Assembly: GCF_902459645.1 (NCBI RefSeq)
Contig: NZ_CABPSK010000002.1
Span: forward strand, 1,328,767-1,392,766
Length of the DNA stretch: 64,000 nt
From: Pandoraea pneumonica
GTDB lineage: Bacteria > Pseudomonadota > Gammaproteobacteria > Burkholderiales > Burkholderiaceae
Direction of reading: 5' to 3'
The notes under the pieces are model-generated. The model did not search any database, was not told the origin of the DNA, and was given only the letters and a program-made list of their open reading frames with translations. The translations under genes were made by a program, and so were the position numbers. Positions 38,161 to 57,902 of the stretch are shown piece by piece. The stretch's first letter is position 1, and each line of letters starts with the position of its first letter.

Positions 38161-38175
38161 AGTAGCTTTTCCGGC

Positions 38176-39588: not shown

Positions 39589-39599
39589 GATAAAAAAGT

Positions 39600-39618
39600 G
39601 GCTCCCCAAGTGGGAGCC
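39600..39618. terminator. Hairpin flanked by A and T runs
   Basis: GGCTCCC / GGGAGCC with a five-base loop, with AAAAAA before and CTTT after. It could be the old terminator that followed the tRNA copy. Confidence 0.6.
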
Positions 39619-39667
39619 CTTTGCGCGTTTACTATCTTGGGGGATGTTTACCAACTCGGGGGAGCGC

Positions 39668-39994: not shown

Positions 39995-40024
39995 TTTCTT
40001 GCTGGCTTCTGCGTCGATTGATAT

Positions 40025-41092: not shown

Positions 41093-41634
41093 CTACTCCA
41101 GTGATCCTCCTGCGGGTTTGCCCATTTCTCTGGGGCGACATGGGGCGGATTGTATGGCGATGGTCGAACGCTTGAAGGTGATTAGGATTGGGGCATCTCA
41201 GTGACTACTCGCTGCGAGAACCGTCTGGCGTGCCATTGCAGCGACGAAGTAATTCTGGAGTGACATGGGAATTTGAGAGCCTCCCCAATCGGAGCTCGGA
41301 AACGATGTGGTGGCGGTACCTGTTAGACGAACTGGGCGTCCCAATCCGCTCGCCCACTAGCCCCATCCCCATCCCACCCCCCCGCATGAATGATTTCTCA
41401 TCGCGCATAGGCGTCGTTTTTTTCGTTTGTAAGGAAAAAAATGGCTGCCTACCTTCTCTCCACCGGTTCGTAGTCAAAAAACGCTGCTCGGATTCGTCGC
41501 TGCGGTAGGCGTTCACGCGCCGACGGCACTTGCCTTATGCGGCGAGCCGAGACAACCGAGCGCACTCGAATAACCGGACGGACCCGTCATTGAATCGGGT
41601 CCGGGGGGCAGAGATACATGGATTGGAGATCCAG
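41093..41634. other. Gene-poor region before the porin
   Basis: About 540 bases with no convincing gene. It contains a C-rich tract near 41366-41386, and an 8-bp stem CGGACCCG / CGGGTCCG at 41579-41603, 30 bases before the porin start, that may be part of the porin leader. The remaining short frames lack ribosome sites and family resemblance. It is probably the junction between island and catabolic cluster. Confidence 0.45.
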
Positions 41635-42822: not shown

Positions 42823-44103
42823 ATGAAACAGGGGAATATCACTTCCGCCGGGAATGTGCGGTCGGAAGGCAAGCGCACGAATGAACCATGGCTCATGGTC
42901 ATCTACGCGACGATCGGCGCGGGTGTGTGCAGCACGGCGGTCATCCTAATGACGGTGGGTGTGTTCATTCGAGCGCTGGGCGCAGCACACGGCTGGGATC
43001 GCGGGCAAATCTCCGGAGCGCTGTCTATCTGCGCGATCAGTCTGGCCGTCGCGACGCCGGTAATCGGTGCGCTGATCGACCGGTTTCACCTCCGAACCGT
43101 GCTTGTGACGTCGTTGCTCACCTACGGCGCGACGGTGCTGGCAGTTCCGCTGATGGTGAAGACGTGGGGAATCACCGGCTTTTTCCTCGCGTTTTTCTTG
43201 ATCGGCGTCTTCGGCGCGGGTTCGAACACCATCGTCTACTTGCGAGTGATCTCCGGTTGGTTCGACCGATCGCGTGGCCTTGCACTCGGCATCAGCATGG
43301 CTGGCGTTGCGCTCGGAGGGGCAATCGCAGCCCCCTTTGCCGCTGCGATGATCCAGCGGTTTGGGTGGGAAGCTGGCTACTACGCGCTTGGCGCAATGCC
43401 GATCGTGCTTGGCGTGCCATTGGGCCTGTTTCTACTGCGGGAAGCGCCGTCCGAGGGCAACGTAAGCGGCCGCGCCGCCGGGGTACTCGGAGCAGCCGGA
43501 AGCACGCTAACGCAAGCGCTCTCCAGCCGCGCATTCTGGCTGGTTGGGATTTCCGCATTCCTCATGGCCGTCGCGATCAATGGTGCGCAGATCCACTTGG
43601 TCCCCATGTTGCTCGACCGTGGCGTCGCGCTCTCGTCGGCAGCGTTCGCGACGACCGTATTGGCGGTTGCCGCGCTCATCGGACGCGTTGCCGCGGGTTA
43701 TCTATTCGATCGAATCTTTGCCCCTCGCGCCGCCATTGGCATCTTTGCGTTGTCGTGCGTTGGCTGCGCGGGACTTCTGGCAACAAACGCCCCGGGGTCC
43801 GTGTACCTGTGCGCGGCACTCCTCGGCTTTGGTGCTGGTGCCGAATCCGATCTACTGGGGTATTTGATTAGCCGGTATTTCGGATTGGATCACTTCGGCA
43901 AGATCTTCGGTTGGGTGTTTGCGTCGTTTATGGCGGGATCGGCCGTCGGCCCGGTCGTGTTCGGAATGGGATTCGACGCGTCGGGAAGTTACGCCATGCC
44001 GCTCTATCTGGCGTGCGTGGCCCTGCTGGCCGTCTGTGCGTTGTGCGCGATGATGCCGCGATATGCCCCCGTTCAAGAGGCTCAACTCGAAAGCGCGGCC
44101 TAG
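42823..44103 (+). CDS. MFS transporter
   Basis: A 426-residue protein with 12 predicted membrane helices. The first helix is ATIGAGVCSTAVILMTVGVFI; the loop between helices 2 and 3 is GALIDRFHLRTVL (the D-R-x-G-R-type motif), and ISGWFDRSRGLALGISMAGVALGG is the motif typical of monocarboxylate/oxalate-type MFS proteins. GGAGG before 42823 fixes the start. It is likely to import an aromatic acid or related compound for the adjacent pathway. Confidence 0.9.
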   Translation: MKQGNITSAGNVRSEGKRTNEPWLMVIYATIGAGVCSTAVILMTVGVFIRALGAAHGWDRGQISGALSICAISLAVATPVIGALIDRFHLRTVLVTSLLTYGATVLAVPLMVKTWGITGFFLAFFLIGVFGAGSNTIVYLRVISGWFDRSRGLALGISMAGVALGGAIAAPFAAAMIQRFGWEAGYYALGAMPIVLGVPLGLFLLREAPSEGNVSGRAAGVLGAAGSTLTQALSSRAFWLVGISAFLMAVAINGAQIHLVPMLLDRGVALSSAAFATTVLAVAALIGRVAAGYLFDRIFAPRAAIGIFALSCVGCAGLLATNAPGSVYLCAALLGFGAGAESDLLGYLISRYFGLDHFGKIFGWVFASFMAGSAVGPVVFGMGFDASGSYAMPLYLACVALLAVCALCAMMPRYAPVQEAQLESAA

Positions 44104-44291: not shown

Positions 44292-45089
44292 ATGAAAGAA
44301 GTCGAACTAGAAGTGCTGATCGCGTCGAGATTACGCGACGCGTACACCAGCGGTCCCATTGCTCCATTCGCCTCCTGCGTGGACGGCGATATTGACGCCG
44401 CTTATCGCATCCAGCACCGCAACACCGACCATGCGATGAAGGTCGACCGCCGCCAAATCGTAGGGCGAAAAATCGGACTGACATCGACGGCTGTCCAGAA
44501 GCAGCTTGGCGTCGACCAGCCTGACTACGGTGTGCTGTTTGACGACATGGCAGTCGCCAATGGCGGGACCATCGATATGTCGAGCCTTTTGCAGCCAAAG
44601 ATCGAAGCGGAGATTGCGTTTGGTTTTCGCGTGGACATCGACGACTCGTCCCTCGAAATGTCCGACCTGTTTGAGCGAATTGAATGGGTCGCCCCGGCGC
44701 TCGAAATTGTGGATAGCCGCATCGAGAATTGGCGCATCGGGATTGTGGAGACGATCGCGGATAACGCGTCGTCTGGCCGCTTCGTGATTGGCCCGAAACT
44801 GCCATTCACGTCGGACATCGAGTTGGTGAACTGCCAAATGCAAATGCAGGAGAACCGGCAGGTGGCTTCGACGGGAAGCGGGGCGGCGTGTTTGGGGCAT
44901 CCGCTGAACGCAGCGCTTTGGCTCGCCAAAAAGCTGATCGAGGTGGGCCATCCGATCAAAGCGGGAGAGTTGGTGCTTAGCGGCGCACTCGGACCCATGG
45001 TGAGCGTCAAGCATCACAGCACGTATCACGCCGCTATCGAGGGGATCGGTGAGGTCTCCGTTCGGTCCAGCGCTGAAGCCGGAATTTGA
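44292..45089 (+). CDS. 2-hydroxypenta-2,4-dienoate hydratase family protein
   Basis: A 265-residue MhpD/XylJ/CarD-type hydratase that would add water to a 2-hydroxy-dienoate to give a 4-hydroxy-2-oxo acid, the step after meta-cleavage product hydrolysis. The family regions GRKIGLTSTAVQKQLGVDQPDYG, LLQPKIEAEIAFGF (metal-ligand Glu pair), VAPALEIVDSRIENW and ASTGSGAACLGHPLNA are clear. GGGGAAAAG before 44292 selects this start over 44265. The matching aldolase and acylating aldehyde dehydrogenase are not in the window. Confidence 0.92.
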   Translation: MKEVELEVLIASRLRDAYTSGPIAPFASCVDGDIDAAYRIQHRNTDHAMKVDRRQIVGRKIGLTSTAVQKQLGVDQPDYGVLFDDMAVANGGTIDMSSLLQPKIEAEIAFGFRVDIDDSSLEMSDLFERIEWVAPALEIVDSRIENWRIGIVETIADNASSGRFVIGPKLPFTSDIELVNCQMQMQENRQVASTGSGAACLGHPLNAALWLAKKLIEVGHPIKAGELVLSGALGPMVSVKHHSTYHAAIEGIGEVSVRSSAEAGI

Positions 45090-45110: not shown

Positions 45111-45884
45111 TTGCCATACCTAGATCATCACGAAAGTCGGCTGTATTACGAAGTGCACGGCAGCGGTTCGCCGGTAGTGCTATTGCATGGCGTGGGCGGT
45201 AATCACGCAAGCTGGTTTTATCAAGTCGCCGCATGGCGAGCGCATTTTCAGGTCATTCTTGTGGATGCCCGAGGCTTTGGGAAATCCACGGACGCCGAGC
45301 TAGCCGGACGCACCGAGTTCACGAACGATCTCCTCGCAATTCTCAATGCGCTCGATTTGCACCGCGTATCGTTTGTTGCGCAGTCGATGGGCGCTGGCAC
45401 CGCGATCGATTTCGCGTGTCGCTACCCTGACCGTGTCGCGTCCCTCCTAATTGCCGATTCTCTGGTCGGCATTACCTTGCCGGAATCCGTCGCTTCGGAA
45501 ATGGCAAAAGTGCAGAGCGCGACGCGCGACCTGTCTCAGGCAGAACGCGTGCTCGGACGCACACACCTCGCCAATTCCCCAGCGATGACGCAGTTATATC
45601 TGCAAATTGCCGGATTCAATCGCTACACCTTTAAAACACTTGTTGGCGTTCAGCCGTCTTACACGCCCGAGCAGATCGCGGCGACGGGCGTACGTATCGG
45701 CTTTCTCGTTGGCGAGGAGGATGTTCTGTTTCCGGCAAAGATCGTATCCGACGTTTGCAAGCGCTTCATCGGATCGGAATTGATAACGCTTGCCAGCGCA
45801 GGGCACTCCGCCTATTTCGAGGCGCCAGACGCCTTTAATACCCGCGTCGCCGGTTGGCTTCGATCCCAAAAGTCCCAAGCATAG
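45111..45884 (+). CDS. Alpha/beta hydrolase
   Basis: A 257-residue enzyme with the alpha/beta-hydrolase signatures: oxyanion region VVLLHGVGGNHASWF, nucleophile elbow AQSMGAG, acid near GEEDVLF and catalytic His in SAGHSAYFEAP. It resembles 3-oxoadipate enol-lactonases and meta-cleavage product hydrolases; which cannot be decided. The start is TTG at 45111, backed by AGGAGAGGAAG and by the spacing of 21 bases from the hydratase stop, implying one transcript. Confidence 0.85.
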   Translation: MPYLDHHESRLYYEVHGSGSPVVLLHGVGGNHASWFYQVAAWRAHFQVILVDARGFGKSTDAELAGRTEFTNDLLAILNALDLHRVSFVAQSMGAGTAIDFACRYPDRVASLLIADSLVGITLPESVASEMAKVQSATRDLSQAERVLGRTHLANSPAMTQLYLQIAGFNRYTFKTLVGVQPSYTPEQIAATGVRIGFLVGEEDVLFPAKIVSDVCKRFIGSELITLASAGHSAYFEAPDAFNTRVAGWLRSQKSQA

Positions 45885-46049: not shown

Positions 46050-46700
46050 ATGGCAGCTTCACAGGAAGTCGGGCAGCGATTGCGCGACTGGATATACGAC
46101 GCGATCCGAGATCTCGTCGAGCGCGGCAAGCTGCAACCCGGTCAACGGTTGACGGAAACGCATCTCGCTGCACGGTTTGGCGTTTCTAGAACGCCTGTGC
46201 GTGAGGCATTGTTTCAGTTGGCTAGGGAAGGGCTGCTGGAGCCATTGGAGCGAGGTTACGGGTTCAGTGAAATGCCGATGCAGGCGTTACTGGCCCGATT
46301 GGACGTGAAAGCGTTGCTCGATCCGGTGGTCGTCGCAAACGTTGCTGAATCGGGAACCGTCGCACATATCTCGCAAATTGCTATCTTGTCGGACGATGCG
46401 AGACGCGTGCTCCTTTCTGACGCCTCGTCATTCGCTGCGGCGAGCGCTGTTCACGGATTGCAGAAAACCCTCGGCACCGCTTGCACAAACCACGTGCTCG
46501 CACGGTGCTTCGTCGCTGCGGAAGATGACTTTCTCGCTGCGAGGCCATTGCTGCTGCGATCAATGAAAAACCGCTTAATGACCTCGGACTACCTGGACGT
46601 CTTCGTTAAGCAACTAGTGAGCAGGGACGCAATGTCAGCCGAGGCTCAAACGCGTGCCTATATCGCCAGACTCGCGGAGTCGTGCGGCATGCAAGCCTGA
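46050..46700 (+). CDS. GntR-family regulator 1
   Basis: A 216-residue regulator. The N-terminal winged helix is typical of the FadR/GntR family (LQPGQRLTETHLAARFGVSR then TPVREALFQLAREGLLEPL). The C-terminal domain of about 140 residues is helical but lacks the expected His/Asp metal-site pattern of FCD domains, so its ligand mode is unclear. It shares much of its DNA-binding domain with GntR regulator 2, which faces it from the other strand. It may control the adjacent catabolic genes. Confidence 0.86.
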   Translation: MAASQEVGQRLRDWIYDAIRDLVERGKLQPGQRLTETHLAARFGVSRTPVREALFQLAREGLLEPLERGYGFSEMPMQALLARLDVKALLDPVVVANVAESGTVAHISQIAILSDDARRVLLSDASSFAAASAVHGLQKTLGTACTNHVLARCFVAAEDDFLAARPLLLRSMKNRLMTSDYLDVFVKQLVSRDAMSAEAQTRAYIARLAESCGMQA

Positions 46701-46726: not shown

Positions 46727-47431
46727 TTACGAACGCGTCTCCGCGGCCGTCTTTACGGTTCGCTTTCGAGGCGCACGGCCCGACGGGTTCGGATGCGTCT
46801 TTATCAGCATCTCGACATACTCTTTCGCAATTTTCCCCGCGCCTTTCACGTCGCGCGAACGAATTGCCTCGAGCAACAAGCCATCACGATGCACTGAAAT
46901 AGCGCGATTCCCTTCGTCTTTGTAATGCTCGTTGCGAACCAGCAGGAACTGATCTTCCAGCACTGCACAAACGCGCGTTAGCGCCGTGTTGTGGCTCATG
47001 TCGAGCAGTAGGGTGCGGAACTCATGTGCCGCCGCGACAAACGCGGAATACTTCGACGACGCCTCGGCCTTCTTCATCTTTTCGTAGGCGCTCGCCAAGG
47101 CTTCGATCTGCTCGTCGGATCCGTACTTTGCCGCGTGTTCGGCCAGCGGCGGATCGAGCAATAGCCGGACTTGCATGCGTTGCAGGAAATCTCGCGGCGT
47201 ATCCGTCATCAGCGAATACCCGCGATCGGTGCGCACAACCAAGCCTTCTCGCGCCAGTTGGAAGAGCGCCTCGCGTATCGGCGTGCGCGAGACCCCATAG
47301 CGCTCGGCCAATTCCAATTCAACGAGCCTAGACCCGGCCGGAATGGCGCCCCCGTGCAGATCCTCCCGAAGCAGTTGGTAAACCTGATCGCGTAGCCGAT
47401 CGCTCTGTACGACTCTACGGGTGGCGCTCAT
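46727..47431 (-). CDS. GntR-family (FCD) regulator 2
   Basis: A 234-residue FadR-type regulator. The winged helix (AGSRLVELELAERYGVSRTP then IREALFQLAREGLV) is followed by an FCD domain with the usual helices and the His residues in AHEFRTLLLDMSHN and SVHRDGLLLEAIRSRD. Divergent from the Rieske oxygenase gene, with an operator-like palindrome between them, it is the best candidate for the cluster's substrate-responsive repressor. Start at 47431 chosen because the frame upstream of it overlaps the divergent promoter region. Confidence 0.9.
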   Translation of the reverse strand: MSATRRVVQSDRLRDQVYQLLREDLHGGAIPAGSRLVELELAERYGVSRTPIREALFQLAREGLVVRTDRGYSLMTDTPRDFLQRMQVRLLLDPPLAEHAAKYGSDEQIEALASAYEKMKKAEASSKYSAFVAAAHEFRTLLLDMSHNTALTRVCAVLEDQFLLVRNEHYKDEGNRAISVHRDGLLLEAIRSRDVKGAGKIAKEYVEMLIKTHPNPSGRAPRKRTVKTAAETRS

Positions 47432-47652
47432 AGCGTTGAAGTTTTGGTTAGTTCGCACCGATTCTACGACGAAATGCCTGAGATTTCGGTGGGCAAAGTG
47501 GGATTCCGTGACATTCACTCAACACATTCGTAATGCTCATGCATAGGTGAATTTCAAATCGTTTGTTGCGCCTAGAACGCGGCCCTAGGATGGCAATCAC
47601 GTCGAGTTGCGGCGTCGACACTATCCGCTAGCAACGAGAAGTCCAGTATTCA

Positions 47653-47669
47653 TTGCATACAGTACGCAA
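47653..47669 (+). promoter_or_regulatory. Candidate GntR operator 2 (best palindrome)
   Basis: TTGCATACAGTACGCAA is symmetric at seven of eight pairs apart from the centre and one mismatch, and lies 25 bases before the CarAa-like gene start in the divergent gap with GntR regulator 2. Confidence 0.68.
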
Positions 47670-47693
47670 ACAAATAGATCGGAGACGCCCACA

Positions 47694-48854
47694 ATGAGCG
47701 AACAGGCACATTTTGTAGACGAAAGTTTGTTGAACAAGGTCCCGCGCTGGCGCAACTACCTTGCGGCGAAGCTCGGCTTTCGGAACCACTGGTATCCGGT
47801 GAAGCTGTCCAGCGACGTTCTCGAAGGCAAGGTGAGCCAAGCGACGGTGTGTGGCGAGGAAATCCTGCTCAAGCGCGTGGACGGTGAAGTGAAGGCGATT
47901 CGCGACCGGTGCCTGCACCGCGGCGTGAAGTTCTCCGAGAAGGTGGAGTGCTATACGCCCGACACGATCACGTGCTGGTACCACGGCTTCACCTACAAGT
48001 GGAACGACGGCAAGCTGTGCGACATCCTGGCCTCGCCCGACAGCAAGGCAATTGGGCGACGTAGCGTCAAAAGCTATCCGGTTCAGGAGGCCAAGGGCCT
48101 GATCTTTGTGTTTGTGGGCGACGAAGGGTTTGAAGCGCCACCGCTCGCGGAAGACGTGCCGCCGACGTTCCTCGACGACGATTTGGAATTGCACTGTGCG
48201 ATCTATGAAGTCGAGTCGAACTGGCGCGTCGGTTGCGAGAACGGCTTCGACGGCTTGCACGTGTACATCCACCGCGCGTCGGAGCTCGTGCCGGACACCC
48301 AGCGATCCCTGCCCATCGGGCACCTTGCGAAGTCGGGCGACGTGCTCGTACACGAGGAGGCGGGCGCACCGAAAGGCGTCTACGACGCATTTGCCAACCA
48401 TACGAGCATTTGGGAAGGGAAGGTCGATGGTCAGGTTGTCGTTACCGGCACGAAGCGCGTGTCTGAAAAGCCGACCCGAACCACGGCTGCGTCGCTCTGG
48501 ATGCCGTGCGGGCTGCGCGTCGATGACTTCCCCGATCAGGACATCACGCAGTTCGAGTTCTACGTCCCGGTGACGGAATCGAAGCACCTCTACGTGATGC
48601 TCGTCGGCAAGCGCGTTTCGACCGAGGAAGAAAGCGCGCACTTCAATCACGAGTTCTGGAATCGATGGAAGCCCATCGGTTTCGAGAACTTCAACGCTCA
48701 GGACATTCAGGCGCGTCTGGCGCTTCAGACCTTCTACAAGCGCGATACGGCCTGGCTCGACGAGATGCTCATCGAGGGCGATTCGCCGCTCATCAAATGG
48801 CGCGAGCTATGCCATCGCCATGCGCGCGGCATTCAGAAGCCGGAACACATGTGA
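47694..48854 (+). CDS. CarAa-like Rieske non-haem iron oxygenase, catalytic subunit
   Basis: A 386-residue terminal oxygenase closely resembling carbazole 1,9a-dioxygenase CarAa. It shares KLGFRNHWYPV, the Rieske ligands Cys73/His75 (DRCLHRG) and Cys94/His97 (TITCWYHG), LCDIL and YPVQEAKG, the mononuclear-iron His pair at 189 and 193 (ENGFDGLHVYIH), and the distant Asp in NFNAQDIQAR. Enzymes of this type are homotrimers without a beta subunit, matching its absence here. Reaction: dioxygenation or monooxygenation of an aromatic ring. Substrate is inferred only broadly as aromatic or heteroaromatic. Confidence 0.9.
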   Translation: MSEQAHFVDESLLNKVPRWRNYLAAKLGFRNHWYPVKLSSDVLEGKVSQATVCGEEILLKRVDGEVKAIRDRCLHRGVKFSEKVECYTPDTITCWYHGFTYKWNDGKLCDILASPDSKAIGRRSVKSYPVQEAKGLIFVFVGDEGFEAPPLAEDVPPTFLDDDLELHCAIYEVESNWRVGCENGFDGLHVYIHRASELVPDTQRSLPIGHLAKSGDVLVHEEAGAPKGVYDAFANHTSIWEGKVDGQVVVTGTKRVSEKPTRTTAASLWMPCGLRVDDFPDQDITQFEFYVPVTESKHLYVMLVGKRVSTEEESAHFNHEFWNRWKPIGFENFNAQDIQARLALQTFYKRDTAWLDEMLIEGDSPLIKWRELCHRHARGIQKPEHM

Positions 48855-48885
48855 GCGGTCGAGGCTCAATGGCGCAAGGTGAGCA

Positions 48886-50145
48886 ATGAAAAATACACAC
48901 GAGAATGAGCCGATTGTGATCATCGGCGCGGGCATCGCAGCCGTCTACGCCGCCGAAAGCGCGCGAAAGGCGGGCTTCGACGGCCGAATCATCATCTGCG
49001 GAGACGAGAGCGAGGCCCCTTACGACCGTCCGCCGCTTTCCAAAAAGGTGCTGCAAGAGGCAGCAGAAGCGGACCACATTTCGTTGCGAGACAACGCGTT
49101 TTACGACGCGCATGACATCGATCTGCGCCTCGGCAACGCGGCGCAGCGTATTGATCGGGACGCGCGTCAGGTCATGTTCGCCGACGGCACGTCCCTCGGA
49201 TACGGGGCACTCGTGCTGGCGACCGGATCGTCGCTGCGCACGCTTCCTTTGCTTCATCCCGGCATGCCGCACGTGTTTTACCTGCGCCGGATTTCGGATG
49301 CGATCGCATTGCGAGAAGCGCTGCCGAACATCCGGAGCCTCGCAGTGGTTGGTGCAGGCGTGATCGGCCTAGAAGTGGCTTCTGTCGCCAACGGCATGGG
49401 AATCGACGTGACGGTGCTGGAAGCGGGAGACCGTCCAATGGCTCGCGCAACCTGCGTCGAAGTTTGCAACTTCGTCGTGCAGCAGCACGAAAAACGAGGT
49501 GTGCGCATTCGCACCGGCGTCTCGATCAAGGAAGTCACCGAACGCGCGCCTGGTTACCGCCTGGCGCTCTCCAATGGCGAATCGCTAGACGCGGATGCGG
49601 TGGTGGTCGGCATCGGCGTGGTGCCGAACGTCTCCCTTGCCGCCGCCGCTGGCATCGAGACGTGCGCGTCGGGCATCTGCGTCGACGGGCGCGGCCGAAC
49701 CTCCGACGAGCACATCTATGCAGCCGGGGAAGTCGCGTTTCACTTCAACGCCCGTGCGGGCCGTCCGGAGCGTCAGGAGAACTGGCATCACGCGGTGGCC
49801 CATGGCGAGCATGTCGGACGGGCCATCGTGTGCGGTGGACCTGACTACGAAGAGATCAGCGGCTATTGGTCGGATCAGTACGACTTCAGTCTCCAGTCCT
49901 TTGGTGTCTCCATTGGCGAGCAGAACATCGTGCGCGGTGATCCCGCCAGCGGGGCATTCGTCGTATTCCACTTGCAGGCTGACGTGGTTGTTGGCGTCAG
50001 TGCCGTGGGCGCGCCTCGCGAAATGCGGGCGGGTAAAGCGCTCGTGAGGGCGGCGTCCAAGGTCCCCGTTTCGGTTCTGCGCGATGCCAGCATCGACTTG
50101 GCAAAGTGGCGGGACGATCGGCGTTTCGATGCCAAGTCAGCGTAG
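48886..50145 (+). CDS. FAD-dependent ferredoxin reductase
   Basis: A 419-residue NAD(P)H:ferredoxin reductase of the BphA4/CarAd-like glutathione-reductase fold. It has the FAD GxGxxG motif IVIIGAGIAAVYAAESAR, YDRPPLSKK, LATGSSLR, the NAD-binding LAVVGAGVIGLEVASVA, and the second FAD motif region HIYAAGEVAFHFN, where most relatives have Asp at the Glu position. Its electrons would pass to the Rieske ferredoxin at 51114 and on to the oxygenase. It begins 31 bases after the oxygenase stop. Confidence 0.92.
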   Translation: MKNTHENEPIVIIGAGIAAVYAAESARKAGFDGRIIICGDESEAPYDRPPLSKKVLQEAAEADHISLRDNAFYDAHDIDLRLGNAAQRIDRDARQVMFADGTSLGYGALVLATGSSLRTLPLLHPGMPHVFYLRRISDAIALREALPNIRSLAVVGAGVIGLEVASVANGMGIDVTVLEAGDRPMARATCVEVCNFVVQQHEKRGVRIRTGVSIKEVTERAPGYRLALSNGESLDADAVVVGIGVVPNVSLAAAAGIETCASGICVDGRGRTSDEHIYAAGEVAFHFNARAGRPERQENWHHAVAHGEHVGRAIVCGGPDYEEISGYWSDQYDFSLQSFGVSIGEQNIVRGDPASGAFVVFHLQADVVVGVSAVGAPREMRAGKALVRAASKVPVSVLRDASIDLAKWRDDRRFDAKSA

Positions 50146-50153
50146 GGGGCGGC

Positions 50154-51095
50154 GTGCGAATCCTATTTGCAATGACGGGCAAGGATACAAAGCCATGGAT
50201 CGATGCGCTTCGTAACGCAATGCCGGGGGCCGATGTGCGGGAGTGGGGCCACACCGACGTGGCCCCGGCCGATTACGTGCTGGTCTGGAAATCCGATCCA
50301 GTGACCCTGCGCAAACGCACCGGATTGAAAGCCATCTTTAACGTGGGGGCTGGGGTCGACTGGATTTTGAAAGCGGTCGAGCAAGACCCCACGGTGGTGA
50401 GCCGCGACGTGCCCATCTACCGGATCGAAGACGCTGGCATGGCATCGCAGATGGTCGAGTACGCCACGTACGCGACGTTGCGAAGCTTCCGACGCTTCGA
50501 TGCGTATGAGCAGCAGCAGCGCGAGGGCGTTTGGCAGCCGCTCGCCGTTCATACGGCTGGCGAGTTCATCGTCGGCGTACTCGGTTTGGGCAGCCTCGGT
50601 GCGGCGGTCGCCAGTCGGTTGGCGTCGTTCGGCTTCCAAGTCCGGGGCTACAGCCGGTCTCCGAAACGGTTGGATGGCGTGAGGTGTTTCAGCGGCAAGG
50701 ACGAGTGGTCTTCGTTCGTTCAGGGCGCCCATGTCCTGATCAATCTCCTGCCCAACACGCCGGAAACCCTCGGGGTACTGAACGCACAGACATTCCAGCG
50801 GCTTGCCAAGGGCGCGCACGTCGTGAATCTGGCGCGCGGCGAGCATCTGGTCGAGACGGATCTGCTCTCGGCAATCGAGCACGGACAACTCTCCGGCGCG
50901 ACCCTCGATGTCTTCATGCACGAACCACTCCCCGCCGGTCATCCCTTTTGGAAAGAACCACGTATCTGCATGACGCCACACATCTCGGCGCAGACGCGGT
51001 TGGGGGAGAGCGTCGAGCAGATGGTGCGCAAGATCGATGAGATTGAACACGGCCGAACGCCCACCGGTCGGGTGGATGTGCTTCGCGGCTATTGA
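50154..51095 (+). CDS. D-2-hydroxyacid dehydrogenase (GhrA-like)
   Basis: A 313-residue NAD(P)-dependent dehydrogenase of the glyoxylate/hydroxypyruvate reductase A branch. The Rossmann motif is VGVLGLGSLGAAVASRLASFGF; INLLPNTPET, VNLARGEHLVE (catalytic Arg region) and MTPHISAQT (catalytic His) follow. A GTG start at 50154 with AGGGGG upstream gives the conserved N-terminus; it begins eight bases after the reductase stop. It may reduce a 2-oxo acid released by the pathway. Its position between reductase and ferredoxin genes is unusual. Confidence 0.87.
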   Translation: MRILFAMTGKDTKPWIDALRNAMPGADVREWGHTDVAPADYVLVWKSDPVTLRKRTGLKAIFNVGAGVDWILKAVEQDPTVVSRDVPIYRIEDAGMASQMVEYATYATLRSFRRFDAYEQQQREGVWQPLAVHTAGEFIVGVLGLGSLGAAVASRLASFGFQVRGYSRSPKRLDGVRCFSGKDEWSSFVQGAHVLINLLPNTPETLGVLNAQTFQRLAKGAHVVNLARGEHLVETDLLSAIEHGQLSGATLDVFMHEPLPAGHPFWKEPRICMTPHISAQTRLGESVEQMVRKIDEIEHGRTPTGRVDVLRGY

Positions 51096-51113
51096 ACGGA
51101 ATAGGTAAGGCTT

Positions 51114-51431
51114 ATGGAAAAGAAGATTTTCTTGTGTCGCAAGGCGGATGTGCCGAGCGAGAGCGTGATTCAGGTCTGCCCGAAAGAGGTCGAGGACGGG
51201 CTCGCGGTTTATCACGTCGAAGGGAAGTTCTATGCGACGGAGGATCTCTGTACGCACGGCATGGTTGCGCTCTCCGGTGGAGATCTGCAAGGCACCACGA
51301 TTTTTTGCCCGCTCCATGGCGGGGCATTCGATATCTGCTCGGGCGAGGCGGTCGAGAAGCCGTGCACCGTGCCACTCAAAACCTACCGCGTCATTGAAGA
51401 AGGCGACGCGCTATTCGGTCTCATCGACTGA
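51114..51431 (+). CDS. Rieske-type [2Fe-2S] ferredoxin
   Basis: A 105-residue electron carrier. The Rieske ligands are Cys46/His48 in EDLCTHGM and Cys65/His68 in FCPLHGGAFD. It resembles CarAc and BphA3-like ferredoxins that link reductase and oxygenase. It lies 18 bases after the hydroxyacid dehydrogenase and 59 before the second Rieske oxygenase. GGTAAGG before the ATG is the ribosome site. Confidence 0.93.
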   Translation: MEKKIFLCRKADVPSESVIQVCPKEVEDGLAVYHVEGKFYATEDLCTHGMVALSGGDLQGTTIFCPLHGGAFDICSGEAVEKPCTVPLKTYRVIEEGDALFGLID

Positions 51432-51490
51432 CCTTGCCCTTAGTCACACGCCAGGCAGGAAGCGTCGATTCAATTTCGGAGGGGAAACGT

Positions 51491-52768
51491 ATGTTCAGTA
51501 AGGAAGACAACGAGCGACTGTGTCGAGTAGGCCCGGACACGCCGATGGGCAAGACATTCAGAAGCATGTGGATGCCGTTCCTGATGCCGGAAGAACTGCC
51601 CGGCCCGGACTGTCCGCCTATTCGCGTTCGCTTGCTAGGGGAAGACCTCGTTGCGTTTCGCGATACCAACGGCAAGATCGGCCTGCTCGATCGCTATTGC
51701 CCACACCGTCGCGTGGACCTTTTCTTCGGGCGCAACGAAGAGTGTGGTCTGCGCTGCGTCTATCACGGCTGGAAGTTCGATGTCACCGGTACGATCGTCG
51801 ATATGCCCGCGGAACCGGAGAACACGCGAATGAAAACCGACACGCGGATCAAGAGCTATCCGGTAATCGAATGGGGCGGCGTCATCTGGGCGTATATGGG
51901 AGATCCAGCGCACATGCCTGAGCGGCCGCCCGAACTCGAATGGGGACTCGTGCCGCCCGATTTTCGATTCATCACGAAGCGCTTGCAGCGCACGAATTAC
52001 GCGCAAGGGGTGGAAGGCGGCATCGATTCCAGCCATGTGGGCATTCTCCACAGTCACCTCGATGCGGAACATCCCGAGCTGCCGTTTCGCCAGCGGCAAG
52101 TGTCGCCCAACCTCGCCATTCCGTATCTGGCGTCGGACACCGCGCCGAAGTTCTTTGTTCGCCCGACCGACTATGGCATGGCCATCGGCGCGCGGCGCAA
52201 CGCGGGCGATACCTCGTACTACTGGCGCGTCACGCAGTTTCTCGCGCCGTTCTACACGATGATTGCGCCGATCAAGGAAGGGCGCGCATACATGGGGCAT
52301 GCATGGACGCCCATCGACGACGAGAATTGCTGGGTGTTCACGATGACGTGGAATAGCGATCGCCCGCTAAGTCAGGAGGAACTGGACCACGGCGCGGTGC
52401 ATTCGGACGTGATGAACGACGGCTCTTATCGCCCCTTAGTGACGGCGGAAACGGACTACGGCATCGACCGTCTGCGCCAGCGCCTGCATAGCTCTACGGG
52501 CATCGAAGGCATCGGCGTGCAGGACACCGCCGTGCAGGAAAGCATGGGCCCCATCGTCGACCGCTCGCGCGAGAATCTGGGTTCAGGCGACGCAGCCATC
52601 GTCGGCTTCCGCAAGGCGCTGTTAAAGCTGGCGACGCAGTGGGAAGCGGCTGGCGTGCTCGACGTGGCACACCACCCAGAGTGGTACCGCGTTCGATCCA
52701 CAGCCGCCATTCTCGAACACGGCATCGATTTTCAGGCGGGCACGTCGGCCGCGACGACCGTGGGTTGA
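51491..52768 (+). CDS. Second Rieske oxygenase (phthalate dioxygenase / LigX-like)
   Basis: A 425-residue oxygenase of the type shared by phthalate 4,5-dioxygenase and LigX-like demethylases. The start MFSKEDNERLCRVGPDTPMG is characteristic. Rieske ligands are Cys70/His72 (DRYCPHRR) and Cys89/His92 (RCVYHGW), and the catalytic iron ligands His182 and His187 lie in GIDSSHVGILHSH. GGAGGGG precedes ATG 51491. The substrate may be a carboxylated or methoxylated aromatic. Its last 37 bases overlap the convergent LysR gene. Confidence 0.91.
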   Translation: MFSKEDNERLCRVGPDTPMGKTFRSMWMPFLMPEELPGPDCPPIRVRLLGEDLVAFRDTNGKIGLLDRYCPHRRVDLFFGRNEECGLRCVYHGWKFDVTGTIVDMPAEPENTRMKTDTRIKSYPVIEWGGVIWAYMGDPAHMPERPPELEWGLVPPDFRFITKRLQRTNYAQGVEGGIDSSHVGILHSHLDAEHPELPFRQRQVSPNLAIPYLASDTAPKFFVRPTDYGMAIGARRNAGDTSYYWRVTQFLAPFYTMIAPIKEGRAYMGHAWTPIDDENCWVFTMTWNSDRPLSQEELDHGAVHSDVMNDGSYRPLVTAETDYGIDRLRQRLHSSTGIEGIGVQDTAVQESMGPIVDRSRENLGSGDAAIVGFRKALLKLATQWEAAGVLDVAHHPEWYRVRSTAAILEHGIDFQAGTSAATTVG

Positions 52769-53721
52769 TCCATCTCGCAACGCAAGCGACTGGCTTCTCC
52801 TGCAAGCCAGTCGCACAGCGATCGCACAGCCCCATCTTCCTGAGCGCCTTCGCGCATCAACAAGTGATAGGCCCCCGCGCTGGTGACCTCACCTAGCGGC
52901 GGCACTACCAACTCGTCGCGCCCCTCGTAGTTCTCCAGCACCGCCTTCGGCACAAGCGCCACCCCCTTGCCATCCTTCACGGCTTGCAGCGTGATGAAGA
53001 AGTGCCCGAAGTCGAGCGGGTTGGCGTCGTCGGGCACACGCAGTCCGTGCAAGGCCAGCCAATCCGGCCACGCGTGCCGTCGGCTCGCCGTATTGATCAG
53101 ACGGTATTGAAGCAAGTCGGCAGGCGCGTTGATGGCGCCTACCGCGTCCATGAGATGCGGCGACACGACGGGGACAAGAATGTCCGGGAAGAGAGGCTCG
53201 ACATAGACGTCCTTCCAGTTCTCCGTCATATCCAGATCGATGCGCGGCGCGCGCCGGTCGTAGCGTTGTCCGGGGACCTTGCCCACGCGGATGGCGACAT
53301 CCACCTTCTCGCTGTGGAGATTCACGGGGTCGATCGACGAGATCAGCCGGACTTCGATATCCCGGTGTGCTTCGGTGAATTGCGCCAGCCTCGGCATGAG
53401 CCAGCATGTGGCGAGCGTTGGCAGGACATCGAGCGTGACGACGCGGTGGGTGTCTCGCACAGCGCGATGCGTCGCCATAGAGATGATGTCGAGCGCTTGT
53501 TGAATCGATCGAAAGTACTCGCGTCCAGCGGGTGTCATTTCGATCTTTCGCGTCAGCCGGACAAACAGCTTTTGCCCGAGAAAACTTTCGAGAAGCCGAA
53601 TCTGCCGGGAGATCGCCCCCTGAGTCAGATGTAGCTCTTCTCCGGCTTTGGTAAAGGACAAGTGCCGCGTCGACGCTTCGAAAGCGCGCAGGGCCAGCAA
53701 GGGGGGAAGACGATAGCTCAT
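52732..53721 (-). CDS. LysR-family regulator (GcvA-like)
   Basis: A 329-residue regulator. The helix-turn-helix (LRAFEASTRHLSFTKAGEEL then HLTQGAISRQIRLLESFLG) is of the GcvA/AmpR branch, followed by a two-lobed ligand-binding domain with VDVAIRVGKVPG. Start at 53721; the longer frame to 53850 is not conserved. It is divergent from the extradiol dioxygenase operon and may activate it with an aromatic co-inducer. It overlaps the second Rieske gene by 37 bases tail to tail. Confidence 0.91.
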   Translation of the reverse strand: MSYRLPPLLALRAFEASTRHLSFTKAGEELHLTQGAISRQIRLLESFLGQKLFVRLTRKIEMTPAGREYFRSIQQALDIISMATHRAVRDTHRVVTLDVLPTLATCWLMPRLAQFTEAHRDIEVRLISSIDPVNLHSEKVDVAIRVGKVPGQRYDRRAPRIDLDMTENWKDVYVEPLFPDILVPVVSPHLMDAVGAINAPADLLQYRLINTASRRHAWPDWLALHGLRVPDDANPLDFGHFFITLQAVKDGKGVALVPKAVLENYEGRDELVVPPLGEVTSAGAYHLLMREGAQEDGAVRSLCDWLAGEASRLRCEMDQPTVVAADVPA

Positions 53722-53948
53722 ATGACGTACCAAGTTCGACAAGCTTGAGACAAGGTTCCCGCGCCGGTGTTGATCAATGACGCATTCCGAAATGCACACA
53801 TCCGACGCAGAAAAAATCGTTTGTTGATGGGAGAGGTGAACTCCTACCATCCAGACTCGTATCCGACAGGTCGCGCAGGTTCGAAAATGCAGAAAAACGC
53901 GATTTGTGTGGCTTGAGTTCTTTATTTATCAGGCACTTACGGATTCCA

Positions 53949-53965
53949 CTGTATACAGCATTCAA
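53949..53965 (+). promoter_or_regulatory. Candidate GntR operator 3
   Basis: CTGTATACAGCATTCAA, 26 bases before the first extradiol dioxygenase start, contains the perfect palindrome CTGTATACAG and the CAA end shared with the sites at 44204 and 47653. Confidence 0.55.
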
Positions 53966-53990
53966 TGGATTCGATACTAGAGAAAACGCT

Positions 53991-54977
53991 ATGGCAAAAA
54001 TTGTGATGGGCATCGGTTCCTCTCATAGTCCGACCCTTTTGATGAAGCCATCCGCATGGTTGGCCCGCGCCGCGACTGACGATCAGAATTTCTTTGTGCT
54101 TCACGATCACTCAGGCGCTCGGGTGAGCTATGGCGAGTTGCTCGAAAAGGCCGACCCGGCAATCCTGGACGAGATCACACCTGCCAAACTCGAGCAGCGT
54201 CATAAGCAGAATCAGGCGGCTGTGGCGCAACTTGCCGAGACGCTCAACAAGGTGAACCCCGACATCGTCGTGATCATTGGCGACGACCATAAAGAGGTGT
54301 TTCACGACGACAACATGCCGGCACTATCGGTGTATTGGGGCGAGACCATTCCTTATCGTCCGACGGGGATCATGAAGTGGAAGTACGACCCTGATCTCGA
54401 TCAAGAACTCTGGTATCCGCAGGAGCCGAAGGACTATCCCGTCGCGTCGCAATACGCCGAGCGCTTGATTCGCGGAATGATGGATGACGGCTTCGATGTC
54501 GCGCAGTCCAAGTACTTTAAAGATCAGCAGGCAATGAGCCATTCCTTTGGCTATGTCTATTACAAGCTGATGACCGAGAAGATCTACCCGTCGATTCCGG
54601 TCAGCATCAACACCTATTACCCGCCCAACAATGTGTCGCCGCTGCGCGCCTATCGCATCGGGCAGTCGATCCGGCGTGAGATCGAATCATGGAGCGAAGA
54701 CCTTCGGGTGGTGGTCATGTCGACGGGCGGGCTGAGTCACTTCGTCGTCGACGAAGCGTTCGATCGAAGTTTTCTTGAGCGCCTTGCCGCGGGTGGACCC
54801 GACGTCCACGCTCAGCTGCCGCTGCAAAAGCTTCAGTCGGGGAATTCCGAGTTCCGCTGCTGGTCGGCATTGGCCGGTGCAGTCGACGGCATGAAGATGG
54901 ATTTAGTCGACTACATCCCGTGCTATCGCAGCCCCGCCGGAACCGGATGCGCAATGGCATTTGCGACCTGGTCGTAA
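53991..54977 (+). CDS. Class III extradiol dioxygenase (LigB family) 1
   Basis: A 328-residue ring-cleavage dioxygenase of the LigB superfamily. Iron ligands expected from LigB are His12 (GSSHSPTLL) and His100 (IIGDDHKEVF); a late Glu and the acid-base His in STGGLSHFVVDEAFD complete the site. It opens an aromatic diol next to a hydroxyl. It is the first gene of the run that also holds an aspartate-dehydrogenase-like gene, a LigA-like subunit and a second LigB-type enzyme. Longer than the 302-residue LigB; the extra part lies at about residues 20-65. Confidence 0.9.
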   Translation: MAKIVMGIGSSHSPTLLMKPSAWLARAATDDQNFFVLHDHSGARVSYGELLEKADPAILDEITPAKLEQRHKQNQAAVAQLAETLNKVNPDIVVIIGDDHKEVFHDDNMPALSVYWGETIPYRPTGIMKWKYDPDLDQELWYPQEPKDYPVASQYAERLIRGMMDDGFDVAQSKYFKDQQAMSHSFGYVYYKLMTEKIYPSIPVSINTYYPPNNVSPLRAYRIGQSIRREIESWSEDLRVVVMSTGGLSHFVVDEAFDRSFLERLAAGGPDVHAQLPLQKLQSGNSEFRCWSALAGAVDGMKMDLVDYIPCYRSPAGTGCAMAFATWS

Positions 54978-55066
54978 CGCTAAGCCTTTGGTTCGGGCAG
55001 CGGCGTGAAAACCATGGCTGCTGCCCTTGATAACACCGGTGAATTCGAGGATTGGGAAAAGTAGAT

Positions 55067-55891
55067 ATGCAAGCGCATACGAGCGGTCAAACGAAACGAG
55101 TGGGTGTGGCGGTACTGGGGACGGTGGGTAAGTCGATTGCGAAAGCGCTCGATGAGGGGATTCCGGGGATTGAGCTTGTCGCCGTCGCGGCGCGTGATGG
55201 CAAAGCGGCTGCTGAGTGGGCCGCCTCGCTGCGGAGTCGTCCCGTTGTCGCCAGCTTTAACCAGATGGCGGAGATTTGCGACGTCGTCATCGAATGCGCA
55301 CCGGCGCATCTTCTGCCGGAAATCGCTGCGCCGGCGCTCAAATTGGGGAAGCAGGTTGTCGTACTTAGCTGCGGCGCACTGCTCGATAACGATGAACTCA
55401 TCGATATTGCGCGTGAGCACGGCGGACAAATCGTGATTCCTACCGGGGCGCTGCTGGGACTGGATGCAGTGAACGCTGCGGCGGAAGGCCGAATCATGTC
55501 GGTGAACATGGTGACGCGTAAGCCCGTCAAGGGACTGCTGGGCGCGCCGTATCTTGCAGAGCAAGGGATCGTGCTCGACGGAATCATCGAGAAGACGCGG
55601 ATATTTTCCGGCACGGCACGCGAAGCGGCGAAGGGCTTCCCCGCGAATTTGAATGTCGTGGTTGCGCTATCGCTGGCGGGCATTGGGCCCGACCAAACGA
55701 AGCTGGAAATCTGGGCCGATCCGGACATCACGCGAAACATGCACACCATCACGGTGGAATCGGACGCGGCGCTGTTCTCCATGTCGATCGAAAACATTCC
55801 GACTGAAAACCCCCGCACGGGGCGGATTACGGCGCAAAGCGTATTGGCGCTGCTGCGCAAAATGACGTCGCCGATGCGCGTGGGAACGTGA
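55067..55891 (+). CDS. Aspartate dehydrogenase-like (NadX/DUF108) enzyme
   Basis: A 274-residue NAD(P)-dependent oxidoreductase. The Rossmann start (VGVAVLGTVGKSIAKALDEG) and the C-terminal DUF108 domain (SLAGIGPDQTKLEIWADPDI, RNMHTITVESD) match L-aspartate dehydrogenase, and IPTGALLGLDAV is the family's nicotinamide-site region. In NAD synthesis it would make iminoaspartate, but no nad genes adjoin; in this ring-cleavage operon it may act on another amino acid, imine or semialdehyde (inference). GGGAAAAG precedes ATG 55067. Confidence 0.85.
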   Translation: MQAHTSGQTKRVGVAVLGTVGKSIAKALDEGIPGIELVAVAARDGKAAAEWAASLRSRPVVASFNQMAEICDVVIECAPAHLLPEIAAPALKLGKQVVVLSCGALLDNDELIDIAREHGGQIVIPTGALLGLDAVNAAAEGRIMSVNMVTRKPVKGLLGAPYLAEQGIVLDGIIEKTRIFSGTAREAAKGFPANLNVVVALSLAGIGPDQTKLEIWADPDITRNMHTITVESDAALFSMSIENIPTENPRTGRITAQSVLALLRKMTSPMRVGT

Positions 55892-55900
55892 GGCGTGGCC

Positions 55901-56197
55901 ATGAGCTTACGTCGTCCCCCTGTGGAACTGCACCGGCTGATTAGTGCGCTCGTGCACCGTCCCGAGTTGGTCGCCCGGTTGCGAGAGGCGCCGGATCAGG
56001 TGCACGAGGAATTCGGGATTCCCGCAGATCAACGCGTGCAATTGCAGGCCGAGCCAACGAAAGCGCTGCGCGAACTCGATGTGCATCCGAACTTGCAGTT
56101 TAAGTATCTCGGTGCCCGTGGCTTGTTGAAGCTGGCCCCGGCGTCGATTGCTCCCTTTCTTCAACAACAAGGTCTTGGCGATGGGAAAGATTGTTAG
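55901..56197 (+). CDS. LigA-like small subunit of class III dioxygenase
   Basis: A 98-residue helical protein. LHRLISALVHRPELVARLRE followed by DQVHEEFGIPADQ is the pattern of the alpha subunit of LigAB-type enzymes and of CarBa-type small subunits, which cap the active site of a LigB partner. It starts ten bases after the previous stop and overlaps the next LigB-type gene by 17 bases, so the pair is translationally coupled. The family call is moderate because the protein is short. Confidence 0.75.
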   Translation: MSLRRPPVELHRLISALVHRPELVARLREAPDQVHEEFGIPADQRVQLQAEPTKALRELDVHPNLQFKYLGARGLLKLAPASIAPFLQQQGLGDGKDC

Positions 56198-56999
56198 TGC
56201 CGCGGCCACGTCTCACACGTTCGGCGTGGCGGATGGGGTGGAGGCGCAAGCGCAGCGCATCTTCGACGGCATCGACCGAATTGGGCAGGCGATTCAGGCA
56301 TCCAAGCCCGACGTGATCTTGATTGCCACCAGCGACCATCTCGTCAACTTCTCGCTCGATTTCCAGATTCCACTCGCTGTCGGCATCTCGGACGAGTGGT
56401 GTCCCTACGGCGATCTTGGCGTGCCTCGGCAACCGTTTCCGGGACATCGGGCGTTTGCCACCGAACTCGTCGCGTTTGCCGCTACGAAGGATTTCGATCT
56501 TGTTGCGGTCGAGAACGTCAAGCCGGATCACGGGCTTGCCATGCCGAACGCGATCATCAATCGCGGCATGAACGTGCCGGTCGTGCCGATCTACATCAAT
56601 ACCGTAATGACACCAGCACCGACTTGCGCACGGAGCTTTGCGTTGGGCAAGGCTGTGCGGGCGTTTGTGGAAACCTCGCGACCGGCGCGCGAGCGTGTCG
56701 CGGTTTTGGCGACGGGCGGGCTCTCGCACTGGATCTGTTTGCCCGATTCAGGGCGCGTGAATGCGAAATGGGATCGGGAATTGATCGAACGAGTCGTGAC
56801 CGGTCGCGGTGCGGAACTGGCGGACTTGTCGTTCGACGAGATCATCAAGGACGGCGGAAACGGCGGACTCGAGATGGCCACTTGGGCATTCATGGCCGGG
56901 ACGACGGGGGCGAGCGTGGGCGAACAGGTCTATTACGAAGAAATGGCCGCGTGGTGGACCGGCATGGGCGGAGTGCTCATGCATCTGGATGGGGCGTGA
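56181..56999 (+). CDS. Class III extradiol dioxygenase (LigB family) 2
   Basis: A 272-residue LigB-type dioxygenase. Iron ligands are expected at His12 (ATSHTFG) and His53 (ATSDHLVNF), with the acid-base His in ATGGLSHWICLP; these spacings are as in protocatechuate 4,5-dioxygenase LigB. Coupling with the overlapping LigA-like gene suggests an alpha2beta2 enzyme like LigAB or CarBaBb. AAGG upstream supports ATG 56181. Confidence 0.9.
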   Translation: MGKIVSAAATSHTFGVADGVEAQAQRIFDGIDRIGQAIQASKPDVILIATSDHLVNFSLDFQIPLAVGISDEWCPYGDLGVPRQPFPGHRAFATELVAFAATKDFDLVAVENVKPDHGLAMPNAIINRGMNVPVVPIYINTVMTPAPTCARSFALGKAVRAFVETSRPARERVAVLATGGLSHWICLPDSGRVNAKWDRELIERVVTGRGAELADLSFDEIIKDGGNGGLEMATWAFMAGTTGASVGEQVYYEEMAAWWTGMGGVLMHLDGA

Positions 57000-57050
57000 T
57001 TTTCATCCACCCGCGACGCGTTGTTTCTCTAAACATTTGAAGAAGGTTTG

Positions 57051-57902
57051 ATGATGAGTTATCCCTCTCTGCCTGCGGATATTCAGGCGGCAAGTCATAC
57101 GGTCGATGTGAATGGCATCGAAACGCACTACCTCGACATTGGACATGGCGACCCGCTGATCTTGATCCATGGCGGTGGCGCCGGTGCTGACAGCTGGGGC
57201 AACTGGCGTGGCTGCCTGGAAGCTTACGCAAAGCACTTTCGCGTGATTGCCTACGATATGCCGGGCTTCGGTCGTTCAGCGAAACCGTCTCCCGATGTGT
57301 ACGAGTACACGCAACAGAACCGCAATCGCCATTTGCTCGGATTCATCGATGCGCTTGGCCTTGAGCGTGTCAGGATCATTGGGAATTCGATGGGCGGGGC
57401 GACAGGGCTTGGGCTGGCGATTGACCATCCGGAACGCGTCGAAAGGCTCATTTTGATGGGGAGCGCTGGACTGAATATCGCTAATCCGGATCCGTCGTAC
57501 ATCAAGAACCTGCAAGGCTACGACTACACGCTTGAAGCCATGCAGCGGATCATGCGTGCGATGGTGGGATCTCGTCACGTTGTCGATCCGGTGATCGTGC
57601 AATATCGCCACGAGATCATGCAGAACGAAGACGCCCGGCAGGCGATTCAGCAAATCACCCGAGCCAAACTGACTTATGAGCGCGAGCAGATTGCGTCAGT
57701 GAAGACGCCGACCCTTGTCGTCGGCGGAAAAGAGGACAAAGTGGCGGTGCTGGCGAGAACCTACGGCTATCTGGAGCTATTGGATAACTCGTGGGGATTC
57801 ATCGTGCCTCACGTCGGTCACTGGGTGATGATCGAAGCCCCGCAAGAGTTTGCGGTGATGACGTTGGGCTTCCTGACGGACCCCGCCTTCGTTGCGTGTT
57901 AA
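57051..57902 (+). CDS. Meta-cleavage product hydrolase (BphD/CarC/MhpC-like)
   Basis: A 283-residue alpha/beta hydrolase. The oxyanion region LILIHGGGAGADSWGNW and nucleophile elbow IGNSMGGATGL (Ser at about residue 113) are the signature of C-C hydrolases acting on ring-fission products; Asp in GGKEDKVAVLA and His in HVGHWVMIEAP complete the triad. It would split the vinylogous 1,5-diketone made by the preceding dioxygenase, giving a 2-hydroxydienoate for the hydratase at 44292. Two tandem ATGs (57051, 57054) are possible starts. Confidence 0.92.
   Translation: MMSYPSLPADIQAASHTVDVNGIETHYLDIGHGDPLILIHGGGAGADSWGNWRGCLEAYAKHFRVIAYDMPGFGRSAKPSPDVYEYTQQNRNRHLLGFIDALGLERVRIIGNSMGGATGLGLAIDHPERVERLILMGSAGLNIANPDPSYIKNLQGYDYTLEAMQRIMRAMVGSRHVVDPVIVQYRHEIMQNEDARQAIQQITRAKLTYEREQIASVKTPTLVVGGKEDKVAVLARTYGYLELLDNSWGFIVPHVGHWVMIEAPQEFAVMTLGFLTDPAFVAC

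Follow-up and report, generated by a model that had tools for sequence, protein, structure and literature searches.

A conserved gene cluster of Pandoraea pneumonica with two Rieske oxygenases, one of them CarAa-type, and two ring-cleavage enzymes

The 64,000-nucleotide stretch of Pandoraea pneumonica DNA analyzed here (the window; contig NZ_CABPSK010000002.1, designated C2, of a 5.85 Mb genome) carries a cluster of aromatic catabolic genes at approximately 41.6-57.9 kb. This cluster looks like a conserved catabolic unit that is undescribed in the open-licence literature searched; at least 17 further bacterial genomes contain largely the same genes. Judging from the gene families, it probably encodes a two-ring pathway in which a fused heteroaromatic compound would be degraded by opening and consuming both rings. 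Open reading frames, translations, and family scans revealed all of the expected gene types as intact reading frames in the window, mostly on the + strand, with the second GntR regulator and the LysR regulator on the - strand. A first-pass annotation had listed a CarAa-like oxygenase with its reductase and ferredoxin, a second LigX/phthalate-type oxygenase, two class III ring-cleavage genes, a C-C hydrolase, a hydratase, a porin, an MFS carrier, and three regulators. Each of these was recovered, while an aspartate-dehydrogenase-family enzyme (AspDH), a GhrA-like reductase, and a second alpha/beta hydrolase (abh1) had been missed. The same annotation considered that the combination matches no named pathway. 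The full gene order is indeed unlike that of any characterized car cluster read, the genes are conserved together, and a full-text search of open-licence papers returned no description of such a cluster.

The carbazole-type genes

The terminal oxygenase CarAa (47694..48854, +) has carbazole 1,9a-dioxygenase as its nearest relative in the PDB (E 2e-116), followed by 2-oxoquinoline 8-monooxygenase (1.5e-79), and shares 46-49% identity with the CarAa proteins of pCAR1, pCAR3, and Acinetobacter IC001. Residues C69, H71, C90, and H93 (pCAR1 numbering), which we take to be the Rieske ligands, and H183, H187, and D333, presumably the iron ligands, were kept in all 18 aligned CarAa rows of the clade described below (P. 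iniqua and IC001 stand outside this alignment). The cluster also provides both the ferredoxin and the reductase that a car-type oxygenase demands. The flavin adenine dinucleotide (FAD) ferredoxin reductase is of the HcaD/AndAa type (48886..50145, +; Pfam Pyr_redox_2 and Reductase_C, with NCBIfam matches under cut-off), and the Rieske ferredoxin (51114..51431, +) shows CxH and CxxH motifs in its translation and 56% identity to the pCAR1 ferredoxin stretch. Between them lies a GhrA-like D-2-hydroxyacid dehydrogenase, regarded as accessory (50154..51095, +; NF012013, 350 bits, under the cut-off of 403). The gaps along CarAa, reductase, GhrA, ferredoxin, and the LigXa-type oxygenase that follows are 31, 8, 18, and 59 bases.

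The genes for ring cleavage and hydrolysis lie at the end of the cluster. LigB2 (56181..56999, +; Pfam LigB) is a CarBb-like catalytic ring-cleavage subunit, 40-45% identical to CarBb of pCAR1/pCAR3 and 36% to that of IC001. It overlaps by 17 bases the gene of a small CarBa/LigA-like subunit (LigA; 55901..56197, +), which had no match in the Pfam or NCBIfam scan and aligned with CarBa of pCAR1 (28%) and pCAR3 (19%), with an HP-L motif in common. Because of its position and its likeness to CarBa, LigA pairs with the downstream LigB2, as in car clusters. The earlier picture of two LigB-type genes around one LigA-like subunit was therefore correct in its gene content, but LigA belongs with LigB2. 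The CarC-like meta-cleavage product hydrolase (57054..57902, +) begins 54 bases after LigB2. Its nearest solved chain, 1J1I, is titled 'meta cleavage compound hydrolase' (E 3e-72) and is, we assume, CarC of strain J3; the hydrolase regions of pCAR1, pCAR3, and IC001 match it at 45-47% identity. These relationships of CarAa, CarBa/CarBb, and CarC favor the heteroaromatic or biaryl substrate suggested at first pass, as far as homology can indicate it.

For the lower steps, the cluster holds a 2-oxopent-4-enoate (2-hydroxypenta-2,4-dienoate) hydratase-like gene (44292..45089, +; NF008461, 295 bits, under the cut-off of 350). Neither an aldolase nor an aldehyde dehydrogenase was detected within the window stretch, as the first-pass annotation had stated, but contig C6 of the window genome encodes a BphJ-BphI-type acetaldehyde dehydrogenase and aldolase pair. 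This pair is 79% and 88% identical to cluster-side copies in Caballeronia arvi and Paraburkholderia lycopersici, and BphJ- and BphI-type genes were each present in the examined DNA of 8 of 16 relatives.

To place the oxygenase, 80 CarAa loci were collected by one pattern-based scan of genome contigs, and a tree of 83 rows was calculated, with pCAR1, pCAR3 (two), and IC001 as the carbazole enzymes. The window CarAa and loci L009-L026 formed one clade of 19 rows (18 loci of 17 named genomes; support 100/100) on a stem of 0.6, and the pCAR1, pCAR3, and IC001 enzymes formed another group, apart from it. Within the clade, which spreads over Burkholderiales and some Alphaproteobacteria, the enzymes of Pandoraea sp. 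PE-S2T-3 and P. iniqua share 98-99% identity with the window CarAa. None of 72,556 plasmid records contained a clade CarAa, the best match being 49%. In contrast to the carbazole clusters carried by pCAR1/pCAR3, the present one is therefore chromosomal, or at least not typical of plasmids. Sphingomonas mali carries two genes of the clade approximately 35 kb apart (L021 and L023), with homologous GH3 glycosidase-like genes at both. Four other CarAa relatives (L028, L064, L082, and L072) look out of place, being contigs of metagenome-assembled genomes titled Klebsiella pneumoniae or a Rhodococcus record grouped with cyanobacteria, and are perhaps mislabelled.

Like the car clusters of pCAR1, pCAR3, and IC177, the window has a CarAa-type oxygenase, the CarBa-CarBb-CarC order, and a hydratase with BphIJ for the lower steps. 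The IC177 cluster, of class IIB make-up, also pairs a Rieske ferredoxin with a flavin reductase, as in the window, and the car types OC7 (order carAaCBaBb), OC9, and Caulobacteridae I and II are known besides (excerpts of PMC10992316). The window differs from the car clusters in that its CarAa forms a clade of its own and in its extra LigXa, second LigB-family dioxygenase, AspDH, and second hydrolase.

These likenesses raise the possibility of a divergent carbazole (or dibenzofuran) cluster, in which carbazole is the substrate and LigXa/LigB1 treats anthranilate or salicylate in an unusual manner. CarAa, CarBa, CarBb, and CarC all have homologues in carbazole clusters, the GntR gene divergent from carAa is placed as on pCAR3, and the carAa-C-Ba-Bb order of L019 and L021 is the one described for IC177 and OC7 (excerpts of PMC10992316). 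The separate, long-stemmed clade argues in the other direction, as do residues in which the clade differs from the carbazole enzymes. At position 259 (pCAR1 reference), carbazole enzymes have A, whereas T was found in 17 of 18 clade rows and S in one; at position 262, I is replaced by A in 16 of 18 and by H in two. R188, R198, H204, and R258 are peculiar to the clade, being invariant within it and lacking in the three aligned carbazole enzymes; if pocket-facing, they would suit an anionic substrate. Furthermore, orthologues of LigXa, LigB1, and AspDH are absent from carbazole clusters as far as these were read. The best match to the anthranilate 1,2-dioxygenase model TIGR03228 in the window genome reached 109 of 672 bits, under the cut-off, in a search that did not extend to the three-component AndA type; this shortfall cuts either way. 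The OC7, OC9, and Caulobacteridae types, which like IC177 lie outside our tree, could belong to the clade, so the carbazole explanation retains some weight; overall, we consider it unlikely.

The second oxygenase module

The second Rieske oxygenase (LigXa; 51491..52768, +) was recognized by Pfam LigXa_C and Rieske, which bears out the LigX/phthalate-type assignment made earlier. Its best solved relative is 9INA (E 1.5e-104), an entry of isophthalate dioxygenase (IPDO; excerpts of PMC12445078). A demethylase function was discarded for either Rieske protein, since the closest solved relatives, carbazole-type CarAa and IPDO, are ring-attacking enzymes. In IPDO, R234 and H257 form salt bridges to the two carboxylates, further determinants are G172, T175, I246, F249, I294, and F333, and L198 stands where phthalate dioxygenase has R207, its second arginine for binding carboxylate (excerpts of PMC12445078). 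The 16 aligned LigXa rows all resemble IPDO in R234, H257, G172, V178, and I246; T175 is replaced by S, and I294 is V or I. The window enzyme and its orthologues depart from IPDO at F333, which is I in all rows, and at F249, which is variable, and they are accompanied by a ferredoxin and a reductase rather than the single reductase of the iph cluster. The substrate of LigXa is likely carboxylated, as far as such residues can tell.

A fluorene- or fluorenone-type route comprises angular dioxygenation, LigAB-type cleavage, and a hydrolase. Applied to the present cluster, it would make phthalate the CarC product and LigXa a phthalate dioxygenase, and LigXa does group with phthalate-type oxygenases. 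However, each of the 16 LigXa rows has I, V, A, or L, and never R, at the position of R207, and AspDH, whose gene all 17 named clade genomes carry, would have no obvious place. The reading was set aside on account of the arginine position, and we regard it as very improbable.

LigB1 (53991..54977, +; Pfam LigB), a single-chain class III ring-cleavage dioxygenase of 328 aa, follows the divergent LysR gene (52732..53721, -; Pfam). Its predicted fold (mean pLDDT 74.8, five-sequence alignment) is nearest to LigB and DesB, and then to MhpB and 2-aminophenol dioxygenases. H12, H100, H250, and E287 are invariant in the five aligned rows and presumably include the His/His/Glu metal ligands. The idea that LigB1 and LigB2 together make up a two-subunit 2-aminophenol dioxygenase was rejected: LigB2 overlaps the CarBa-like subunit, AspDH separates LigB1 from that pair, and LigB1 is absent from three relatives. 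The AspDH gene (55067..55891, +; NF009825, 401 bits vs a cut-off of 253) starts 89 bases after LigB1 and ends with a gap of 9 bases to LigA. The N-x-H motif in its C-terminal region aligns with TM1643, and we take the conserved histidine to be catalytic. A further candidate for this module is abh1 (45111..45884, +; Pfam Abhydrolase_1), proposed to be a second-ring hydrolase or deformylase.

The LigX-LigZ-LigY (DDVA biphenyl) route of Sphingobium SYK-6 likewise uses a LigXa-type oxygenase, a ferredoxin, a reductase, a LigB-family dioxygenase of approximately 330 aa, and a hydrolase. The likeness is one of enzyme types; in the window these are coupled to CarAa and CarBaBb-CarC, and the hydrolases have the alpha/beta fold. 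In the degradation of 3,4-dihydroxypyridine by Rhizobium TAL1145, a pyridine-diol is the substrate of PydA/PydB, a dioxygenase of the LigB family (Pfam02900) and a hydrolase (excerpts of PMC7356986); here the likeness to the window is one of reaction logic. The plasmid neighborhoods of LigXa, LigB1, and AspDH homologues were mixed and pointed to no substrate.

We also observed related genes outside the cluster. At approximately 126-136 kb of contig C7, the window genome has a second catabolic cluster (L173) with two LigB1-like (34-37%) and two LigXa-like genes (47% and 32%), whose neighbors resemble RraA-family proteins by eye. Eight other genomes of the genus contain at least two LigB1-like matches of approximately 36-38%. 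At L019 and L020, genes for AspDH, a short-chain dehydrogenase, and an RraA-family protein stand side by side, and the Bosea plasmid pB32-1 (L121; 16.8 kb read) has the same trio without car-like genes.

Conservation of the gene set

Gene presence in the clade was scored by the best tblastn match above identity thresholds that we chose, in approximately 20 to 75 kb of DNA per genome; the DNA around the locus was extended for 13 of the 17 genomes. The second GntR regulator, reductase, ferredoxin, LigXa, AspDH, LigB2, CarC, and abh1 (partial in Variovorax) were present in all 17 named clade genomes, and CarAa by construction. LigA and the hydratase were each found in 15 (one hydratase partial), LigB1 in 14 (one in pieces), LysR in 13, and MFS in 10 (two partial). 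Eight outgroup stretches of 7 to 21 kb each (L027, L028, L033, L034, pCAR1, two of pCAR3, and IC001) gave LigXa/LigB1 matches of at most 33% and none for AspDH.

The genes also co-occur at the level of whole genomes. CarAa at >=75% identity was detected in 9 of 299 genomes of the family, the window genome included, with the next full-length matches at 38-39%. LigXa at >=70% was detected in the same nine (next among the matches listed, 51%), and LigB1 at >=93% in six of them and in no other of the 299 (next, 38%). Across 369 genomes of the class, clade CarAa was found solely in the window genome; three others had a 44-48% homologue, and these gave no LigXa match at E 1e-130. Gene order and strand vary between the clade genomes, which argues against the mere inheritance of one block. 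The gene combination is conserved as a unit and is not accidental.

This conservation bears on the possibility that two unrelated pathways lie side by side, one car-like and the other, with LigXa/LigB1, directed at isophthalate or another monocyclic aromatic acid. The nearest solved structure of LigXa is indeed isophthalate dioxygenase, and in some relatives the modules lie on different strands or apart. However, the modules occur together in all 17 named clade genomes, from Beta- and Alphaproteobacteria, and within the family CarAa and LigXa share the same 9 genomes out of 299. In addition, an isophthalate route requires a PdxA or short-chain diol dehydrogenase, and neither was matched among the window proteins scanned (porin, second GntR, and ferredoxin frames lie outside that scan); the iph cluster differs from the window in its PdxA-type enzyme. 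We therefore find two independent pathways distinctly unlikely.

LigB1 lacks an orthologue in Paraburkholderia lycopersici, Pandoraea communis, P. terrigena, and the L027 genome outside the clade, among 17 genomes searched; L013, outside that search, has an 81% LigB1 match at its locus. The three LigB1-less clade genomes share a VOC/glyoxalase-fold gene (L014 4291-5256, 321 aa, homologues at L015 and L016; Pfam), which occurs in none of the other 13 of the 16 genomes clustered (P. iniqua outside). Its likeness to HpaD is weak (77 of 321 bits), and it may replace LigB1 as the ring-cleavage enzyme. The LigB1 orthologue of Cupriavidus UYMMa02A (L020; contig C111, 22382-23363) is broken into three overlapping pieces, reflecting either decay or a sequencing error.

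The remaining genes concern uptake and regulation. A Gram-negative porin (41632..42711, +), a probable uptake channel, was identified by eye from its translation, outside the Pfam scan; its tie to the cluster is weaker than that of the core, and porin-like genes adjoin the cluster at L009-L011, L014, and L016. It is followed by the MFS carrier (42823..44103, +; Pfam MFS_1). The first GntR regulator (46050..46700, +; Pfam GntR) precedes the second (46727..47518, -), which was read from its translation, outside the Pfam scan, and is the one divergent from carAa. Just upstream of the cluster, G+C at 36001-40000 of the window is 0.50-0.54, in comparison with 0.60-0.65 in the first 30 kb; this stretch is perhaps acquired DNA.

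A candidate pathway and its substrate

From the genes, their families, the key residues, and the conservation of the set, we infer the following reactions, their order, and what kind of substrate they serve. Supplied by the ferredoxin and reductase, CarAa would add O2 at the ring-junction (angular) position to give a 3-aryl-catechol, and for such an addition no diol dehydrogenase would be needed. The LigA-LigB2 pair would then open the first ring, and the CarC-like hydrolase would release 2-hydroxypenta-2,4-dienoate and an aromatic acid containing the other ring. The dienoate could be converted to pyruvate and acetyl-CoA via the hydratase and the BphI/BphJ encoded elsewhere in the genome. The hydratase and BphIJ fit because the CarAa-CarBaBb-CarC route would free 2-hydroxypenta-2,4-dienoate from an unsubstituted benzo ring. 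LigXa is predicted to oxygenate the carboxylated leftover ring, and LigB1, or possibly the VOC-fold protein in the three relatives without it, to open that ring. Finally, abh1 and AspDH may process the nitrogen-bearing fragment. The AspDH gene, common to all named clade genomes, hints that the second-ring fragment keeps its nitrogen after opening, and the substrate would thus be expected to bear both nitrogen and a carboxylate.

Several observations weigh against this two-ring pathway. The hydratase and abh1 score under every functional NCBIfam cut-off. R234 and H257 of LigXa also occur in four of five control homologues (46-50% identical, one of them a paralogue on contig C7 of the window genome), and the fifth, at 32% identity, lacks both; the two residues thus mark the LigXa subfamily and no particular substrate, and the active-site residues were dropped as a specific substrate marker. 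GhrA is present in only 9 of 17 clade genomes, and in Herbaspirillum lusitanum the cluster genes are on separate contigs. AspDH could have a side role instead, as its close homologues adjoin unrelated genes on plasmids. Its match to GFO_IDH_MocA is marginal (24.6 bits vs a cut-off of 24), and a short-chain dehydrogenase gene lies in the examined DNA of 4 of 16 relatives, so the pathway might include a diol dehydrogenase.

A more specific form of the two-ring pathway is the mineralization of beta-carboline-3-carboxylate or a close tryptophan-derived tricycle, to which we give a slim chance. It was named on the basis of AspDH in 17 of 17 genomes, the basic residues of CarAa, an amino-acid permease gene that adjoins the cluster in three of the relatives, and, in four, FAD oxidases with weak, under-cut-off likeness to N-methyl-L-tryptophan or L-pipecolate oxidase. 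CarAa would attack the benzo ring, and CarBaBb and CarC would yield 5-aminopyridine-2,4-dicarboxylate, an isophthalate-like acid. LigXa would act at the adjacent C-COOH/C-NH2 carbons in the manner of anthranilate dioxygenase, with loss of CO2 and NH3 and without a dehydrogenase. LigB1 would open the resulting pyridine-diol, abh1 would remove a formyl group, and AspDH would handle the remaining 2-imino dicarboxylate. The scheme agrees with the absence of a diol dehydrogenase from the scanned window proteins, yet the four relatives mentioned above do have a short-chain dehydrogenase.

Because the unit joins a carbazole-type angular oxygenase to another Rieske oxygenase and another ring-cleavage enzyme, both rings of a fused substrate could be consumed. 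The absence of the clade from plasmid records, together with its spread over Burkholderiales and Alphaproteobacteria, suggests a natural substrate. The cluster offers a defined gene set for testing on a short list of tricyclic compounds, and it could show the natural role of carbazole-type oxygenases.

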